Below are positions 22,827 to 32,398 of a DNA stretch of 32,585 nt, one piece after another. Within the stretch, counting starts at the first letter, position 1. Every line of letters begins with the position of its first letter. The stretch is from an uncultured Lentisphaerota bacterium (GTDB lineage: Bacteria > Verrucomicrobiota > Kiritimatiellia > RFP12 > UBA1067). The notes beneath the pieces were generated by a model. The model made no database searches, was not told where the DNA came from, and saw nothing but the letters and a program-made list of their open reading frames with translations. The stretch lies in assembly GCA_900320225.1 (NCBI GenBank), contig ONRL01000081.1, positions 1 to 32,585 on the forward strand. Direction: 5' to 3'. The position numbers were made by a program, and so were the translations under genes.

Positions 22827-23453
22827 TCATTTCGAGGGCCTGCAAAGTGGGATGAAGAAGAGGTCGAGTCTCGTGCCCTTCTTCGGGTCGTTTTCGTAGC
22901 GGAAGAAGCGCCAGAGGAACGAGGTGTTCGTGTAACCGTCCTTTTTCGCGTCGCGCGTGATGAACGGGAAGATGTCCGTCGTCGCGTCGCCGTTCAGCTC
23001 CTCGTGGTGGAAGAGCCGCCAGAAGAGCGGCGAGGACCACACGAGCCCGAACAGCGAAAGCGACTCGTCCACTTCGCCATCGAACACCTTCTCCTTCGTG
23101 TCGTAGTCAAAGTTCACCACGCGCTGCCGCTCGCCGCCGAAGACCAGCCGGTTGCCGAACTCGACTTTATCTTCAAACGAGACCGTCCGCTCCTTCCCCT
23201 CGCGCCACAGCTTGCCCGCGGCCTTCCTGACGTCGGCCAACCGCACCCCTCTGCGGCACCTGGCGTTCTCCCCGCCGTGCACGTGGATGACATGCTTCCG
23301 CCCCGCCGTCTCGAAGTTGAACTGGAGCGCCTCGCTTGCGCTGCGGCTGTCCACCAGGAACACATCGTTCGTGACGAAGTCCTTCTTGCTCCAATCCCGT
23401 TCCTTGCGCACCTTCCCGACGATAGATCCGTCCAGTTTCTCGGCGTTCATCAT
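22827..23453 (-). CDS. C-terminal part of the repeat lipoprotein (separate gene or frameshift)
   Basis: A 208-residue frame starting MMNAEKLDGSIVGK. It has no signal peptide. It ends with FLWRFFRYENDPKKGTRLDL, a segment I expect at the C-terminus of large WPL-repeat lipoproteins rather than in a separate protein. Its ATG overlaps the stop of the upstream frame as ATGA (23453-23450), which would allow coupled translation; equally, one base change near 23450-23500 would fuse the two frames into a protein of about 830 residues. I cannot decide from sequence alone. The function is unknown. Confidence 0.6.
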   Translation of the reverse strand: MMNAEKLDGSIVGKVRKERDWSKKDFVTNDVFLVDSRSASEALQFNFETAGRKHVIHVHGGENARCRRGVRLADVRKAAGKLWREGKERTVSFEDKVEFGNRLVFGGERQRVVNFDYDTKEKVFDGEVDESLSLFGLVWSSPLFWRLFHHEELNGDATTDIFPFITRDAKKDGYTNTSFLWRFFRYENDPKKGTRLDLFFIPLCRPSK

Positions 23454-25318
23454 GTTTTCAAGCAGGAGACGAGCGGCCACAGCCAGAATCCAGACGTCGC
23501 GCCCGCCGTAGTGCCGACGAACGGCGTCAGCCACCAAGAATCCGTGATGTTACCGGTTGTCATGCGTCCCGCCAGCAACGTCATGAAATCGCCGCTGCTC
23601 TCGCGATAGTACAGGGGCCAGGCCCAATCCGAGCTGGCAGTGCCGTTTGTCTCCGCGTTGCGGCCGAACACGCCCAGCAGCACACGTGTCTCCTCAGAGC
23701 CATGATCAGTAGCGGTGTGCCACGAGAGAATCGGCGGAATAAGAGCGGTCTCGCTCTTTTTCACGGCGTCCTTCGTATGGCAGTACGGCAACGAGTAGAA
23801 CCCGTTCGGCCCCTTGTACCACAGCGGGAACATGCCGCTCTTCTTCTCGCTGTAGCCGCCGAGCGGCGAATAGAAGTACGAGTTGCCGTGGTAGTCCACG
23901 CCTCCACCTGTCAGGAGCGGCGGGACCATCCACGAGTCGGCATCTCCCGTCTTGGGGTTGAACGACTGCCACCAGAGCGGCGTCACGAAGTCCAGGCTGT
24001 CCCAGTAGGCGACGGGGAAAATCCACTTGCTATCCTCGTTCCGCCCGAAGAGGGGCGTCACGAACATATCCTTGTTGCTTTCGTACCAAAGCGGGAAGCA
24101 CCACGAGCGGCGGAAACCGCTCGGACCGTCCCAGGTCGCGCCGGCGAGGCCCATGAGCGCCTTGAAAATTTCGACGTCCTTGTCGCGTCCGCCGCCCGTG
24201 AGCAGCGGCGGCACGAACCACCAGTCACTCGCTCCCGCCTTGTTCCAGCGCTCGCACCAGAACCACGACGCAAACAGGCTCGGGCTCTTGTACCAGACGG
24301 GGAACGTCCAATGCGATTCCTTCGTCTGCCCGTAGATGGGCGTGACGAACGTCCCGTCGCCGTCGCTGTAGTAGAGCGGAACCAGCCACGACTCCGAAAA
24401 CGATTCACTGCCGGCATGCCCGGCGAGACCGAGCAGGTAGCGGTTGTCGTAAGCGCCCTTGACATCAGTACCCCACGAAAGAAGCGGCGGCACGCACCAC
24501 CAGGAGTTCGTGACCTTGCCGCCATCCGTGCCGGTGCCGCCGCACCAGAGCGGCGAGAGGAAATTCCCGCCAACGGAGGCGTACAGCGGAATCAGCCAGC
24601 TGTCACCCTGCTGGCTCATGCCGAAAAACGGCGTCACGTACGTCAAGTTGTCATCGTGGTAGTAGAGCGGCAACAGCCAGCTCGCGCCTTTTCCGTTCAT
24701 GCCGAAGAGCGGCGTGGCGAGCGTAAGGTTGTCGTCGTGGTAGTAGAGGGGGAAGATCCAGTCTCGCTCCTTGTTGTGGCCGAAGACCGGGAAAAGCGTG
24801 AAATCTTGGTCGTCGATATCCCACCAAACAAGCGGAAAGAGCGTGAAGTATTTCCCCGTGTAAAACACCAGCGGGAAAAGCGAATGGAAGTCGCGGTGGT
24901 TCCATACGACGGGAAACACGTCGAAGTAGTACTCGCCCCAGAACACAGGGAAGACGCGTCCATCCTTCTCTGCGGCGTCGTATTGCCCGAACGGCCAGAG
25001 GAAGTTGTGCTCCGACCCGTAGTGCGAGTAGAGGGGACGAATCGCGAAGTGGTCGTCCGAAAACGAGAGCATCGGCCAGAGCACGGAGCCCACCGGCTCG
25101 CGCCAGTAGGCGAGCGGCCAGAGGTTCACGCGGTCCTCGGGCGCGCCCGCGTAGGTGACATCGTGCCCTTCGTAGAACGGCGTCGACTTCATCTGCTCCG
25201 TTTTGCAGCCCGCCAACAGCGTCGCGCCGGCCGCCAGGCCCATCAACAGGACACGCAGCACACGGGCCGGCGACAGGGCGCACGGCTCACGACTTCTCGT
25301 TTTTCTTGTGCCGAACAT
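23450..25318 (-). CDS. Repeat lipoprotein rich in W/F-P-L-x-Y motifs
   Basis: A 622-residue lipoprotein: basic N-terminus, hydrophobic stretch and lipobox LLAGC with lipidated Cys38. The mature part is built from many degenerate repeats of about 20-45 residues of the type WLLPLYYHDDNLTYVTPFFG and FPLVWWDIDD, rich in Trp, Tyr, Phe, Pro, Asp and Gly, consistent with beta-strand repeats at the cell surface or outer membrane. ATG 25318 is chosen for AAGGAG/AAAGGA upstream; the first 13 codons of the longer frame add nothing. I know such proteins only as uncharacterised families of this phylum. The frame stops at 23450, where the next frame carries what looks like its continuation. Confidence 0.72.
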   Translation of the reverse strand: MFGTRKTRSREPCALSPARVLRVLLMGLAAGATLLAGCKTEQMKSTPFYEGHDVTYAGAPEDRVNLWPLAYWREPVGSVLWPMLSFSDDHFAIRPLYSHYGSEHNFLWPFGQYDAAEKDGRVFPVFWGEYYFDVFPVVWNHRDFHSLFPLVFYTGKYFTLFPLVWWDIDDQDFTLFPVFGHNKERDWIFPLYYHDDNLTLATPLFGMNGKGASWLLPLYYHDDNLTYVTPFFGMSQQGDSWLIPLYASVGGNFLSPLWCGGTGTDGGKVTNSWWCVPPLLSWGTDVKGAYDNRYLLGLAGHAGSESFSESWLVPLYYSDGDGTFVTPIYGQTKESHWTFPVWYKSPSLFASWFWCERWNKAGASDWWFVPPLLTGGGRDKDVEIFKALMGLAGATWDGPSGFRRSWCFPLWYESNKDMFVTPLFGRNEDSKWIFPVAYWDSLDFVTPLWWQSFNPKTGDADSWMVPPLLTGGGVDYHGNSYFYSPLGGYSEKKSGMFPLWYKGPNGFYSLPYCHTKDAVKKSETALIPPILSWHTATDHGSEETRVLLGVFGRNAETNGTASSDWAWPLYYRESSGDFMTLLAGRMTTGNITDSWWLTPFVGTTAGATSGFWLWPLVSCLKT

Positions 25319-25357
25319 ATCGGCTTCCTTTCTCCTTATGGGTGCTTGTCGATTCAT

Positions 25358-25408: not shown

Positions 25409-26467
25409 TCAGTTTTTCGTTAGCGCGCAGCCCGCATCGAGGTGACTAGGGGCAGGGCGGCGGACCTCACCGCCCACATCGGGATGGCGAGCCTCACCGC
25501 CCGTCCCCCACGTCCCCAGCGCCTTCACCAGCGAAGCAATCGTGCCCCCCGGCGTGATGGTCCCGGCCCACACCTCGGACGCCTGCTTCAGCACATACTC
25601 ATTGCACCGCATGGCACGCTGCTTGTTGAGTCCCGTGCCAAATGGAACCGGCGAAATCAAAAGGCCGCTCCCCAGCTCACACGCCCGCACAACGGCAGGT
25701 TCCAGCGCTTCTCTCGGCGGGATGCCGCCCGGATGAATCCGCACAAACCGACGCCCCCTCATCAGCAACTTACCCAGCACCGCCCTTTCCTGCGCACTTG
25801 TGAAAGTGGATATCACCACTTCGGTTTGTTTATGTTCGGGGTGGCGGGTCTCCGCGCCCGCCTTCCTCCTCCACAGCAATCTCGGCTTCAGCTCGCATGC
25901 ACACACCCCCTGCGACGCCACAAACCCCACGAACCGCTTATTCAGCAGCGCGATGTTGCCAAGCGCGTAGCTCGTCATCGGACCGAATCGGTCACTCGAC
26001 CATTTCGCCGGATTCAGTTGAATATAGCGGCGGAAGGCCTGCAGCTTTTCCTCCGTCGTCACAAGCTTCTCCCGGTAGTCGCGCTGCCAGGGAGTGTCAC
26101 CCACATTCACGGCCCGCCCGGCCGCGCGCAAATCGCGATAAACCTTCGCGATCCATCCCTTGAACTGTCCGATCACGTAGCCCAGTTGGTGCTTGCGGTT
26201 ATCTTGCCGCCGGGCAATCCGCAAGATGGCGTGGAGATGGTTCGGCATCACCACGAAATCAACGACTTCCGAGCCCGGGTGCCGTTCGCCCAATGTGCGC
26301 AGCGAATCGGCAACCGCTTCGCCGAGTTCGCTCAACACGCTCTTCGTGCCCACGACCGCCCCGAAGATCGTCTTGTTGAACGCCGCCTGGACCGTCACGA
26401 AAAACATGCCGTGCGAATAGTCGATGTTCGCATGCCGCACCGCCGGCCGGTATTTCATCTCTTCCAT
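25409..26467 (-). CDS. REP-associated Y1 transposase (RAYT-like) with DprA/SLOG-like C-terminus
   Basis: A 352-residue protein. Residues 1-165 are a Y1/HUH transposase: YSHGMFFVTVQAAFNKTIFG, the HUH motif VVMPNHLHAILRI (about 68-80), and the C-terminal helix region WQRDYREKLVTTEEKL followed by YIQLNPAKW, where a Tyr would attack DNA. Residues from about 215 resemble half of a DprA/SLOG fold: FVRIHPGGIPP, then GSGLLISPVPFGTGLNK, then CNEYVL and GTITPGGTIASLV, parallel to the YPPEN, LLSE-P-GT, RN and GSLIT segments of DprA. RAYT proteins process REP hairpins with GTAG/GGAG, which the window contains. The gene itself holds hairpin repeats that encode its linker and its tail. AGGAG lies 8 nt before the ATG. 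Confidence 0.82.
   Translation of the reverse strand: MEEMKYRPAVRHANIDYSHGMFFVTVQAAFNKTIFGAVVGTKSVLSELGEAVADSLRTLGERHPGSEVVDFVVMPNHLHAILRIARRQDNRKHQLGYVIGQFKGWIAKVYRDLRAAGRAVNVGDTPWQRDYREKLVTTEEKLQAFRRYIQLNPAKWSSDRFGPMTSYALGNIALLNKRFVGFVASQGVCACELKPRLLWRRKAGAETRHPEHKQTEVVISTFTSAQERAVLGKLLMRGRRFVRIHPGGIPPREALEPAVVRACELGSGLLISPVPFGTGLNKQRAMRCNEYVLKQASEVWAGTITPGGTIASLVKALGTWGTGGEARHPDVGGEVRRPAPSHLDAGCALTKN
25451..25501 (+). repeat. Two GGCGG...CACCGCC hairpin repeats in the transposase 3' end
   Basis: CGGCGGACCTCACCGCCC and GGGATGGCGAGCCTCACCG are similar units. Read on the minus strand they encode the tail with EARHPDVGGEVRRP. Confidence 0.65.
25835..25862 (+). repeat. TTCGGGGTGGCGG hairpin repeat inside the transposase gene
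   Basis: TTCGGGGTGGCGGGTCTCCG continues to CCCGCC, giving GGCGGG / CCCGCC arms. The first 13 nt are identical to the unit at 31853. It encodes GAETRHPEH in the linker between the two domains. Confidence 0.72.
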
Positions 26468-26594: not shown

Positions 26595-27389
26595 TTACGT
26601 CCTTTCCTCCTTCGCCCTCAGCATCCCGACCATCCTCTCGTCGACCGCCTGCCGGCCGATCTCGACCAGCGGCCCGACACGCCGGAAATCGAGCGCCACG
26701 ACCTTCCCGACATCGGGACGGATGAGCACGTCGGGCTTGTTGACGGCGAGTTCGCGGCGCGTGAGCTCGTAGTTCAGGATGCCGAAGGATTTCAGCAGCA
26801 CGTCGGTGATGCGCAACTTTTTGAACGGCTTGGCGGTTGCCGGATCTTCCAGCGGATTCACATCCACGGCAATGACCACATCCGCCCCCAGCGCGCGGCA
26901 CACCGACACGGGCACAGGATTGACGAACTGCCCGTCGACGAGCACGCGCCCGTCCCGCTCAATAGGGGAAAACACGCCGGGAATCGACATCGACGCGCGC
27001 ACGGCCGAAATCAGATCCCCATCCTGCATTACGACCGCCTCGCCCGTGTTGAGATCGGTAGCCACCGCCGCAAACGGGATCGGCAAGTCGGGAAACCTCT
27101 CCGTCGCAATGATCTGCCGCAACTTCTTCTCAACGCTCCGCCCTGCAATCAATGCCTTCATGGTGGGGAAGTCGAATAGCAGCTCCGGCAGCTTCTTCCA
27201 GCTCGACATCTCGCACCACGCGAGCGCTTCATCCACCCGTCCGGCGGCGATCACCGCGCCCGCGATCGCGCCGATCGAGGTGCCCGCGATGCAGTGAATC
27301 GGGATTCCCAACTCCTGCAGCCGCTGCCACACGCCGAGGTGCGCGATTCCCCGCGCGCCTCCGCCACCTAACGCCAATCCAATTTTCAT
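26595..27389 (-). CDS. Patatin-like phospholipase, RssA-type
   Basis: A 264-residue patatin-family serine hydrolase. The oxyanion loop is GGGGARGIAHLG (8-19), the nucleophile elbow GTSIG (Ser38), and the dyad Asp is in DGQFVNP (Asp152; DGG is more usual). Length and layout match RssA-type proteins, which are cytoplasmic or membrane-associated acyl hydrolases. AAAGGAGG precedes the ATG, 16 nt after the alpha/beta hydrolase gene, so it is last in a three-gene operon of hydrolases. The lipid substrate is unknown. Confidence 0.92.
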   Translation of the reverse strand: MKIGLALGGGGARGIAHLGVWQRLQELGIPIHCIAGTSIGAIAGAVIAAGRVDEALAWCEMSSWKKLPELLFDFPTMKALIAGRSVEKKLRQIIATERFPDLPIPFAAVATDLNTGEAVVMQDGDLISAVRASMSIPGVFSPIERDGRVLVDGQFVNPVPVSVCRALGADVVIAVDVNPLEDPATAKPFKKLRITDVLLKSFGILNYELTRRELAVNKPDVLIRPDVGKVVALDFRRVGPLVEIGRQAVDERMVGMLRAKEERT

Positions 27390-30337: not shown

Positions 30338-32398
30338 TCAACCCTCATTGTACCACGCGTTCAGCTTCGCGTTGAACTCGAGGCGCGTGCCCTGCGCCCA
30401 TTCCTTCACGCGGTCGGTGAGGTCCTCGACATGCATCGTCACGCGGCGGCGCGGCACGAACGGCGACCAGAAGAACCACAGGAGCACGCTCTTGATGAAC
30501 GTCGGCACGAACGCGGGCGAGTCCTTGCGCCCCGCGCGGCTCCAGATGCTGCCCCAGAGGCCGCGCGTGCGCACGCCGATGACGCGCACGCCGGAAGGAA
30601 GGTCGCCGCAGATGTTGTAGGCGAGCTGGCGCGTGCCGATGTCATCGCGGTCGGGTTCGGTCTGGATGTGCCCCGAGGGGTAGAAGATCACGTTGCCACC
30701 GTCGGCAAGCGCGTTCTTCACGACGTCGCCAAGGCCGCGCGCGATCGAGGCGCCCTTCGCCGTGCGGTGTTTGCGCAGGTCCGGCACCGGCACCGCGCCA
30801 AGCGTGCGCAGCACGGCCGGCGCCACGATGCCTGCATGGAAAAACCTCTCGTCGCACAGTCCCCTGAGCGGCGTTTTCCAGAACACCACGGTCACGAGCA
30901 TCGGATCGACCATCGCCGGGTGGTTCGGCAGCACGAGCAGAGAAGATTGTGCAATTGTGCAATTATGCAATTGGGAATTATCCAATGCGGAATTTGGGCC
31001 ACTTGCCCCCTTTTCCCCATTTGCGCATTTTCCCATTTGCGCATTTTCACAATTGCACAATTGCACATTTGCACATTTCAAGATTTCATCCATTCCGTCC
31101 ACGTCCACCTTATACCGCCGCAGGAAGAGCCACCGCCCCGTGCGGAGCAGAACCGACCGATAGCTGAACACGAACAGGAACGGCACGACGAACATCACGA
31201 GCGAAACGAGCAGCAGAAAAGCCTTCGGGCCGAACGCCCAGCTGACGAGCGCATAGCATCCGCTCGCCGCGAGCATGAAGAAGAAGGACACCTGATTGAG
31301 GTAGGCGATCATCGTATTGAGACGCGGACCCTTCACGACCTTCTGGATTTCCGCGTCGAGCGGCAATTTGAAGAAACCGAGGTCACACGCGAGCAGCCCC
31401 AGCACGATGCCGAACGCGACCGGCGGAAGCGGCACGAAGAACAGCACCGCAAGCAACGTCGCCGCGATCCAGCCCGTGAGCAGCGTCGCCCCGAGGAGGA
31501 AGCGCCGACGGTCCACGAATCCCGCCAGCACCTGGCCCGCCACGATGCCGATGGCGGCCGCGCACAGGAGTACGCCCGTCCCTGTCCCGCTCAGGTTGAG
31601 TCCGTTCTCCGCCTTGCCGTACACGAGAAGTCCCATCTGCAGCGTCGCCGCCCCCCACCAAAAGACCGACAGCGTGAGGATGATGGCGTTCAAGCCGTTG
31701 CAGCGGGCGGCGATACGACGGACGCGGCGAACGTACCGAATGGGATTGACGGCGTGGAGCGCGCGGTTCTTCTCCTCGCGCGCATGTATCGTGTAACTCG
31801 CCGCGAGGCCGCACGCGGCAAAGGCCACCAAACAGAAATAGGATAAATTCCATTCGGGGTGGCGGACTTCCAAGTCCGCAACCACCGCCCCCGCCACCGT
31901 GCCCGCCAAAACGCCGAGAAAAGACATCCCCTCCATTCCCCCCATGCCGGTCGAGATGCGGCCCATTCCGCCGATGTCCCGGACGAGCGCGTATTTCGCG
32001 GGCGAGTAAAGGGAACTCTGGAGCCCCATCAGCAGAACGGCGCCGACGACCAGCCACGGCGACTTGAACGCGAGTCCCGCGATTGCCACGAGCATGATCG
32101 GCAGTTCGGCCCACTTTGCGGCGCGAATGATGCGCTGTTTCGCCCACACGGCGGTCAACCGGTCCGCAAGCGGCGAACAGAGGATGTAGGGCAACACGAG
32201 CGCACCGGCCGTTACGCCCATCGCAATCGACTTCACGCGCGCGTCGGCGATCCAACTGATCACGGTAAAACCGGCCAACGTCTTCACGAAGTTGTCATTC
32301 AACGTTCCGAAGAACGTGGTCACGTACAACGGCAGGAAAGAAGACCTCTCAGCATCTTCGGCAACTCGCGCAGATGCGCTTTCGCTCTCGTCAAACAT
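30338..32398 (-). CDS. LplT-like MFS transporter fused to a PlsC-type acyltransferase
   Basis: A 686-residue membrane protein. Residues 20-415 are an MFS domain of the LplT kind (FLPLYVTTFFGTLNDNFVK, SLYSPAKYALVRDI), with about 12 hydrophobic segments. Residues 486-686 are a glycerophosphate acyltransferase domain with NHPAMVD (492-498) and FYPSGH (572-577, for FPEG). By analogy with LplT-Aas, it would flip a lysophospholipid inwards and re-acylate it. The linker 440-485 is an unusual Cys/Asn/Gln-rich insert coded by an AT-rich inverted repeat. A hairpin repeat codes LEVRHPEW (176-183) in a loop. AAAAGGAGC precedes the ATG. No AMP-binding domain is present. Confidence 0.88.
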   Translation of the reverse strand: MFDESESASARVAEDAERSSFLPLYVTTFFGTLNDNFVKTLAGFTVISWIADARVKSIAMGVTAGALVLPYILCSPLADRLTAVWAKQRIIRAAKWAELPIMLVAIAGLAFKSPWLVVGAVLLMGLQSSLYSPAKYALVRDIGGMGRISTGMGGMEGMSFLGVLAGTVAGAVVADLEVRHPEWNLSYFCLVAFAACGLAASYTIHAREEKNRALHAVNPIRYVRRVRRIAARCNGLNAIILTLSVFWWGAATLQMGLLVYGKAENGLNLSGTGTGVLLCAAAIGIVAGQVLAGFVDRRRFLLGATLLTGWIAATLLAVLFFVPLPPVAFGIVLGLLACDLGFFKLPLDAEIQKVVKGPRLNTMIAYLNQVSFFFMLAASGCYALVSWAFGPKAFLLLVSLVMFVVPFLFVFSYRSVLLRTGRWLFLRRYKVDVDGMDEILKCANVQLCNCENAQMGKCANGEKGASGPNSALDNSQLHNCTIAQSSLLVLPNHPAMVDPMLVTVVFWKTPLRGLCDERFFHAGIVAPAVLRTLGAVPVPDLRKHRTAKGASIARGLGDVVKNALADGGNVIFYPSGHIQTEPDRDDIGTRQLAYNICGDLPSGVRVIGVRTRGLWGSIWSRAGRKDSPAFVPTFIKSVLLWFFWSPFVPRRRVTMHVEDLTDRVKEWAQGTRLEFNAKLNAWYNEG
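30944..31081. repeat. AT-rich inverted repeat of 8-nt units, inserted in coding sequence
   Basis: The left end is made of TGTGCAAT/TATGCAAT units, the right end of CACAATTG and CACATTTG units, so the two ends are reverse complements. The middle holds CATTTGCGCATTTTCC repeats. It is in frame (46 codons) in the linker of the transporter-acyltransferase gene. Confidence 0.85.
31853..31879 (+). repeat. TTCGGGGTGGCGG hairpin repeat inside the MFS domain gene
   Basis: GCGGACTT-CC-AAGTCCGC forms a perfect 8-bp hairpin after TTCGGGGTG. It shares its first 13 nt with the unit at 25835 and encodes LEVRHPEW on the minus strand. Confidence 0.72.

Follow-up and report, generated by a model that had tools for sequence, protein, structure and literature searches.

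Gene and locus

The window, a 32,585 nt stretch of DNA from an uncultured Lentisphaerota bacterium, carries a gene for a Y1 HUH protein of the RAYT type which has a DprA-like domain at its C-terminus (Table 1). Enzymes of this type are small, cut DNA and act on the short hairpin repeats found in bacterial genomes, while DprA is a DNA-uptake protein. The gene starts with an ATG at 26467 and has the sequence GGAGA a short way 5' of this start codon. One flank is formed by a gene for a patatin-like phospholipase (26595–27389, reverse strand, Pfam E=9e-33), and the other by a gene for a 635 aa protein (23450–25357, reverse strand), the start of which resembles that of a lipoprotein and for which a Pfam search gave no match. 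This 635 aa protein has repeated aromatic FPL/W/Y segments and its gene contains an 81 bp tandem repeat of 1.9 copies (24616–24772), while the 8 bp unit CATTTGCA is repeated in 7.6 copies at 31018–31078 of the window. As the relatives L007 and L008, which come from two sister genomes of uncultured bacteria (RUG assemblies), have the RAYT gene together with both flanks in conserved order, the gene is a settled part of the chromosome, and a recent mobile insertion is ruled out at this locus. A phage or plasmid origin was also rejected, with no match found in plasmid and phage collections in a tblastn search using the C-terminal domain of the relative L037; one viral contig (L179) carries a related HUH domain, but no DprA tail.

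Table 1. Positions of the RAYT gene, its domains and its REP-like units in the window
Feature	Residues	Positions	Strand	Basis or remark
Whole gene, RAYT-type Y1 HUH protein with C-terminal DprA-like domain	1–352	25409..26467	-	352 aa plus stop
N-terminal HUH/Y1 nuclease domain	1–160	25988..26467	-	Pfam Y1_Tnp, invariant catalytic columns, VIA-align to 4er8
DprA-type Rossmann (SLOG) domain, with REP-encoded insert within	163–321	25505..25981	-	Profile and predicted structure
G-N-x-x-L-L and first strand with degenerate GSR motif, GNIALLNKRFVGFVASQ	170–186	25910..25960	-	Profile alignment, predicted strand
In-frame REP-like palindrome, KAGAETRHPEHKQ	201–213	25829..25867	-	Loop between GSR strand and next core strand
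Palindrome sequence GGGCGCGGAGACCCGCCACCC		25839–25859		Within the in-frame REP insert
GTGG-footed hairpin, single-stranded form, GGGGTGGCGGGCCTCCGCGCCCGCC and complement				
Position of DprA ssDNA-binding motif 2, here A-M-R-C-N	285–289	25601..25615	-	Alignment
Disordered tail	322–352	25412..25504	-	Predicted structure
Two degenerate REP-like units in disordered tail		25459–25475, 25486–25502		

The HUH/Y1 nuclease half

The first-pass annotation described the first half of the protein as a RAYT-type HUH enzyme, and both sequence and structure comparisons agree with this. The Pfam family Y1_Tnp is matched at 24.1 bits (cut-off 23), residues H77, H79, W127, Y148, N152 and P153 are invariant in an alignment of 26 sequences (motifs H77-L-H79 and N152-P153), and the HUH/Y catalytic set is complete. 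Residues 6–159 of the predicted model align with the Escherichia coli TnpAREP structure 4er8 in VIA-align (Z 12.6, rmsd 2.7, 125 aligned residues), and the model of this half also superposes on IS200/IS605 transposases, while a PDB search with the single sequence gave only weak HUH matches and a few chance matches. The protein thus has the HUH and Y-x-x-x-N-P core of the TnpAREP/RAYT proteins, and like these is encoded by a chromosomal low-copy gene (for the classes see Quentin et al. 2018, PMC6006769), but it differs from them in falling under the curated NCBIfam cut-off: REP_Tyr_transpos was matched at E=3e-14 and 53.1 bits against a cut-off of 80, and the protein is therefore filed as RAYT-type and not as an NCBIfam equivalog.

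The second difference from known RAYTs is the DprA-like domain, which stands in place of a short tail. RAYTs without this domain mostly stop approximately 20 aa past the core, with a GLV...DWPYSG tail that corresponds to the tail of TnpAEc, and the DprA-like domain thus occupies the place of a regulatory, REP-contacting tail. In TnpAEc this tail contacts the GTAG foot, and deletion of its last 13 residues raises activity (PMC8266576). There is precedent for added C-terminal domains in the RAYT subclass 2.1.2, although the tails there are helical DNA-binding domains (HTH or DnaA_C-like; PMC6006769) and not a Rossmann fold.

The C-terminal half is a DprA-type Rossmann domain

Assignment of the second half to the DprA/SLOG type, also proposed in the first pass, holds in profile matches, in the predicted structure and in a fold search in which DprA entries came first. 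An AlphaFold2 model of the full protein (26-row alignment) had a mean pLDDT of 84.9, with values above 90 across most of residues 163–310 outside the insert; the pTM of 0.63 leaves the mutual placement of the HUH and DprA-like domains uncertain, while the DprA-like domain modelled alone reached a pLDDT of 90.9 and a pTM of 0.86. In the full model, residues 156–341 align with ShosA (Z 14.4) and residues 158–329 with SpDprA (Z 12.4). With the domain alone, the list is headed by seven DprA/ShosA entries (Z 14.2–10.5), i.e. ShosA (14.2), SpDprA (12.2), three HpDprA entries (12.0–11.7), HpDprA 5mll (11.2) and RpDprA (10.5), with the next best entry at 7.6. The other SLOG relatives (LOG, YpsA, TRPM and ThsA SLOG domains) rank below DprA at Z 3.3–7.6, and the fold is that of the SLOG superfamily. 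Compared with DprA itself (SpDprA 3uqz, HpDprA 4ljk, RpDprA 3maj), the Rossmann fold is collinear all the way from the GSR strand and the preceding GN..LL segment to the RN helix (Z 10.5–12.2), but the window protein has no SAM or DML1 domain. The fold does not begin at residue 205, as first proposed, but at approximately residue 163, with residues 201–213 being a REP-encoded insert.

Profile comparisons gave a similar picture, with the family profile finding SpDprA among all PDB chains at E=1.7e-4, and with hhalign matches of the RAYT C-terminal domain to canonical DprA of related genomes (E=7e-4), to PsyrA-type proteins (E=4e-11) and to a group of DprA-like proteins, most of them free-standing (E=1e-35). 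A chance similarity to DprA is ruled out by the last of these values together with structural Z scores well above those of the next folds. As for the Pfam family DNA_processg_A (cut-off 29.6), which the first-pass annotation had named for a check, a Pfam search with the window's own C-terminal domain gave no match and this cut-off was not reached, while the DprA-like relatives L189 (48.8 bits) and L192 (33.8 bits) pass it, and because these free-standing relatives do so, the chain from the window domain to DprA is closed. A search of a viral structure library returned nothing at an E of 0.001 or better, the top row being a phage DprA-like protein at E=0.043. The gene in the window is thus a well-supported fusion of a RAYT/TnpAREP with a DprA-type Rossmann (SLOG) domain.

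The nearest relatives of the domain are free-standing DprA-like proteins (L181–L187 and L192, and the longer L188–L190 and L194–L196), which have the SGF(H)SP.E and A..RN motifs in common with it, but which lack an HUH domain, nearly all have the arginine of DprA motif 2, and in some cases exceed the Pfam DNA_processg_A cut-off. As a group they show a conserved SGFHSP.E, with DNA_processg_A scores that are weak or barely above the cut-off, and no RAYT-type frame was seen within the few kb around the genes of L181–L190, L192 and L194–L196. In one further case (L191:921–2723, forward strand), a single open frame encodes a four-helix-bundle protein (Pfam 23S_rRNA_IVP, TIGR04258 suffix domain) followed by a DprA-like domain of the same kind.

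The PsyrA/RqlI and ShosA antitoxins belong to the same branch of the DprA-like fold and share the A-M-x-x-N helix, with ShosA being the top structural match, whereas PsyrA/RqlI differ in having a C-terminal helix-turn-helix and a helicase partner, and in lacking an HUH domain. PsyrA-type antitoxins are present in genomes of the same phylum (L123, L124, L125 and L129; PADLOC PsyrA scores of 442 bits for L124 and 345 for L129). One possibility is that the domain binds a helicase, or some other protein acting on ssDNA, and keeps it in check, in the manner of the PsyrA/RqlI antitoxins. There is a physical interaction between RqlI and the RecQ-like helicase RqlH (PMC4670107), the RAYT domain profile favours PsyrA-type proteins (28–50 bits) over canonical DprA (at most 7 bits), and PsyrA is the sole PADLOC match of the window protein (E=0.0038, 14.4 bits), albeit over residues 167–316 only and thus not as a full-length PsyrA. 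However, the free-standing DprA-like proteins are nearer relatives than PsyrA, and there is no adjoining helicase gene, the direct neighbours encoding the patatin and the unannotated protein with the lipoprotein-like start, and we consider such a partner-binding role to be unlikely.

No report of a RAYT/TnpAREP joined with DprA or SLOG was found in the open-licence literature among the matches listed, and the RAYT classification paper does not mention a DprA or Rossmann tail (PMC6006769). The RAYT-DprA-like fusion therefore looks undescribed, while other RAYT tails and REP insertion in RAYT genes are already known.

Conservation of the DprA functional motifs

The first-pass annotation also stated that the first GSR strand of DprA was absent, which was found to be incorrect. 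Residues 170–186 (GNIALLNKRFVGFVASQ) align with GNLDLLKFPKVAVVGSR of SpDprA, including the GN..LL segment directly upstream of the Rossmann core, the AlphaFold2 model has a strand at residues 179–183, and none of 24 sequences varies at G170 or S185. The strand was probably overlooked because the REP-encoded insert separates it from the next core strand.

The ssDNA-binding signatures of DprA consist of motif 1 (G-S/T/A-R) and motif 2 (F/L/Y-x-x-R-N/D) (PMC9769556), and in the window protein neither is intact: motif 1 reads A-S-Q, with Q186 replacing the arginine, and motif 2 reads A-M-R-C-N, with C288 in the place of the arginine. Among the 24 family sequences, position 186 is occupied by R in 14, by Q in nine and by E in one, and motif 2 has its arginine in five and its asparagine (N289) in all 24. 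This results in a gradient across the family, with five proteins having CSR and RN, nine having ASR and CN, and ten having ASQ or ASE and CN, the last being the clade of the window protein. The five CSR and RN proteins form a fused subclade (L032, L034 and L036–L038) in which both signature arginines are kept, and their RN matches motif 2 of the free-standing DprA-like relatives. The DprA-like domain has nine invariant columns in 24 diverse proteins; E227, which is aligned with the D of the DprA GID, is invariant, as is N289. The alignments support retention of a putative S185/E227/N289 pocket in the window protein, the ligand of which may be a nucleotide or something else.

The SpDprA dimer residues lie within G249–D275 and the acidic triad for RecA binding consists of E235, D243 and E265 (PMC4066776). 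The structural alignment of the domain alone covers SpDprA 80–241 and no further, while the alignment of the whole protein reached SpDprA 271, but did so across the disordered REP-encoded tail. The dimer residues as well as D243 and E265 thus fall past the end of the window domain, which differs from DprA in lacking both ssDNA-binding arginines, the dimer-residue stretch and most of the RecA triad. These losses bear on the function first suggested for the fusion, i.e. that the C-terminal domain binds ssDNA, passes it to RecA and loads the transposase on displaced single strands. The DprA-type fold and the retention of both arginines in the CSR and RN subclade speak for it, but as both arginines are replaced in the window protein and its domain ends at approximately SpDprA 241, DprA-style ssDNA binding and RecA loading are unsupported for this protein. 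RecA loading, or ssDNA binding of the usual DprA type, is unlikely in its case, and we regard the proposed loading of the transposase as distinctly improbable.

The same missing stretch affects the possibility that the DprA-like domain is an oligomerisation module, which dimerises the RAYT and so pairs two REP hairpins. Although DprA Rossmann domains form dimers (PMC4489622, PMC4066776) and the TnpA proteins of IS200/IS605 function as dimers (PMC6006769), the window domain is without the part bearing the SpDprA dimer residues, and this role is doubtful.

REP-like palindromes within and outside the gene

The REP unit of the insert and tail is a palindrome of the form GGCGGGC-loop-GCCCGCC, which on the opposite strand often starts with GGGGTGGCGGG, giving the hairpin a GTGG foot; a GGGT ahead of GGCGGGC, equivalent to this GTGG foot, was present in 10 of the 20 distinct copies read. 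The pLDDT is low at residues 205–212 within the insert. The L007 and L008 genomes contain 36 and 71 copies of the REP core, respectively (2 mismatches; 7 for the control in each genome), often paired at a distance of 27 bases, and the dispersed GT[AG]G-footed palindromes associated with RAYTs are thus found in the sister genomes. Only three copies of the REP motif are present in the source genome's own fragmented assembly, and the target set of the window protein is consequently poorly defined. One of these three (L040:1480–1535) lies in frame inside a gene identified by inspection as coding for a putative N-acyl-D-amino-acid deacylase. When folded on its own as DNA, the L007 unit was stabler than all 200 shuffled versions (z -3.25), and the window's own REP units were moderately stable relative to shuffled sequences (z -1.7 to -0.5).

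In-frame REP units within the gene have been reported for RAYT subclass 2.4 (PMC6006769), and this is a further likeness to TnpAREP/RAYT, along with the scattered GT[AG]G-footed palindromes. The location differs, however, as in subclass 2.4 the units are found between HUH and Y, while here a loop within the DprA-like domain and the tail contain them. The gene also varies in how many units it has, with one in the linker of the window gene, three in L007 and more in L008. The linker expansion in L008 (L008:3001–4220) puts the HUH part and the DprA-like domain in different frames, representing either a split gene or an assembly error.

Distribution, phylogeny and selection

We searched 388 genomes of the phylum with profiles, and found RAYT matches (E of 1e-4 or better) in 270 genomes while the C-terminal profile was matched in 100, of which 60 had an E of 1e-20 or better, free-standing relatives included. 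The source genome itself has seven RAYT-type genes with a DprA-like domain (contigs C276, C277, C131, C279, C189, C254 and C115) and at least four without (C178, C293, C221 and C294). The survey of RAYT homologues called for in the first pass showed that the fused proteins form nearly one clade: in a tree of 92 HUH domains, 55 had the tail and 37 did not (numbers which are not a frequency, as the sample was partly drawn by the tail itself), and the tail label required three changes compared to 29 when shuffled. The two exceptions within the main fused group are L031, the frame of which is broken by a stop, and L179 from the viral contig, while the fused L005, L136 and L138 fall outside this group, on a long and weakly supported branch. 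As a RAYT architecture the fusion is phylum-wide, and the tree topology favours, but does not prove, a single origin. Very divergent RAYT paralogues of the source and related genomes (L002–L006, L126–L144) also carry a GN..LL / SR / SP..S.GE tail, and the DprA-like tail thus predates the close family and exceeds it in diversity.

Both domains are maintained by purifying selection, as is apparent from their low dN/dS values: in comparison with L007 these were 0.22 for the HUH domain, 0.13 for residues 161–321 and 0.08 for residues 216–321, and in comparison with L010 they were 0.14 for the HUH domain and 0.10 for the DprA-like domain, with synonymous sites close to or beyond saturation. Residues 322–352 gave values of 0.48 and 1.03, and this tail is loosely constrained. 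The piling up of REP units inside the domain and the shift of the domain to another frame by the L008 expansion might be taken to mean that it is an evolutionary leftover, a fold without function, but with a dN/dS of 0.08–0.13 in the domain and the nine invariant columns this is very improbable.

Possible role of the DprA-like domain

Taken jointly, we lean towards reading the protein as a REP-associated Y1 transposase, encoded on the chromosome, with a DprA-derived Rossmann domain that acts in cis in place of the usual short C-terminal tail. The HUH domain would nick and rejoin single-stranded DNA where a hairpin has a 5' GTGG foot, and the DprA-like domain, located where the TnpAREP tail contacts the GTAG foot, would tune this activity, through a grip on the flanking strand or through a ligand in the conserved S/E/N pocket which alters activity. 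On the basis of motif content and position, the DprA-like domain is most likely a cis regulatory or DNA-contact module instead of the usual RAYT tail, and not a RecA loader. A more specific and rather speculative version, to which we give little weight, is that a free-standing DprA-like module was captured by a RAYT and, having once bound ssDNA, became a sensor, with the S185/E227/N289 pocket binding a nucleotide or similar signal and gating REP cutting; if true, hairpin processing would respond to the state of the cell.

RAYTs are widespread domesticated transposases, and the fused clade, with its strong selection and a ssDNA-binding signature graded from intact to lost, offers a direct handle on their role in the host. 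The CSR/RN, ASR/CN and ASQ/CN forms provide a comparison series for REP handling. As a small module in circulation, the DprA fold can be free-standing, fused to a RAYT or fused to a four-helix-bundle protein, and this modularity bears on the regulation of HUH enzymes. Being widespread, under constraint and open to direct tests, the fusion is of real interest.
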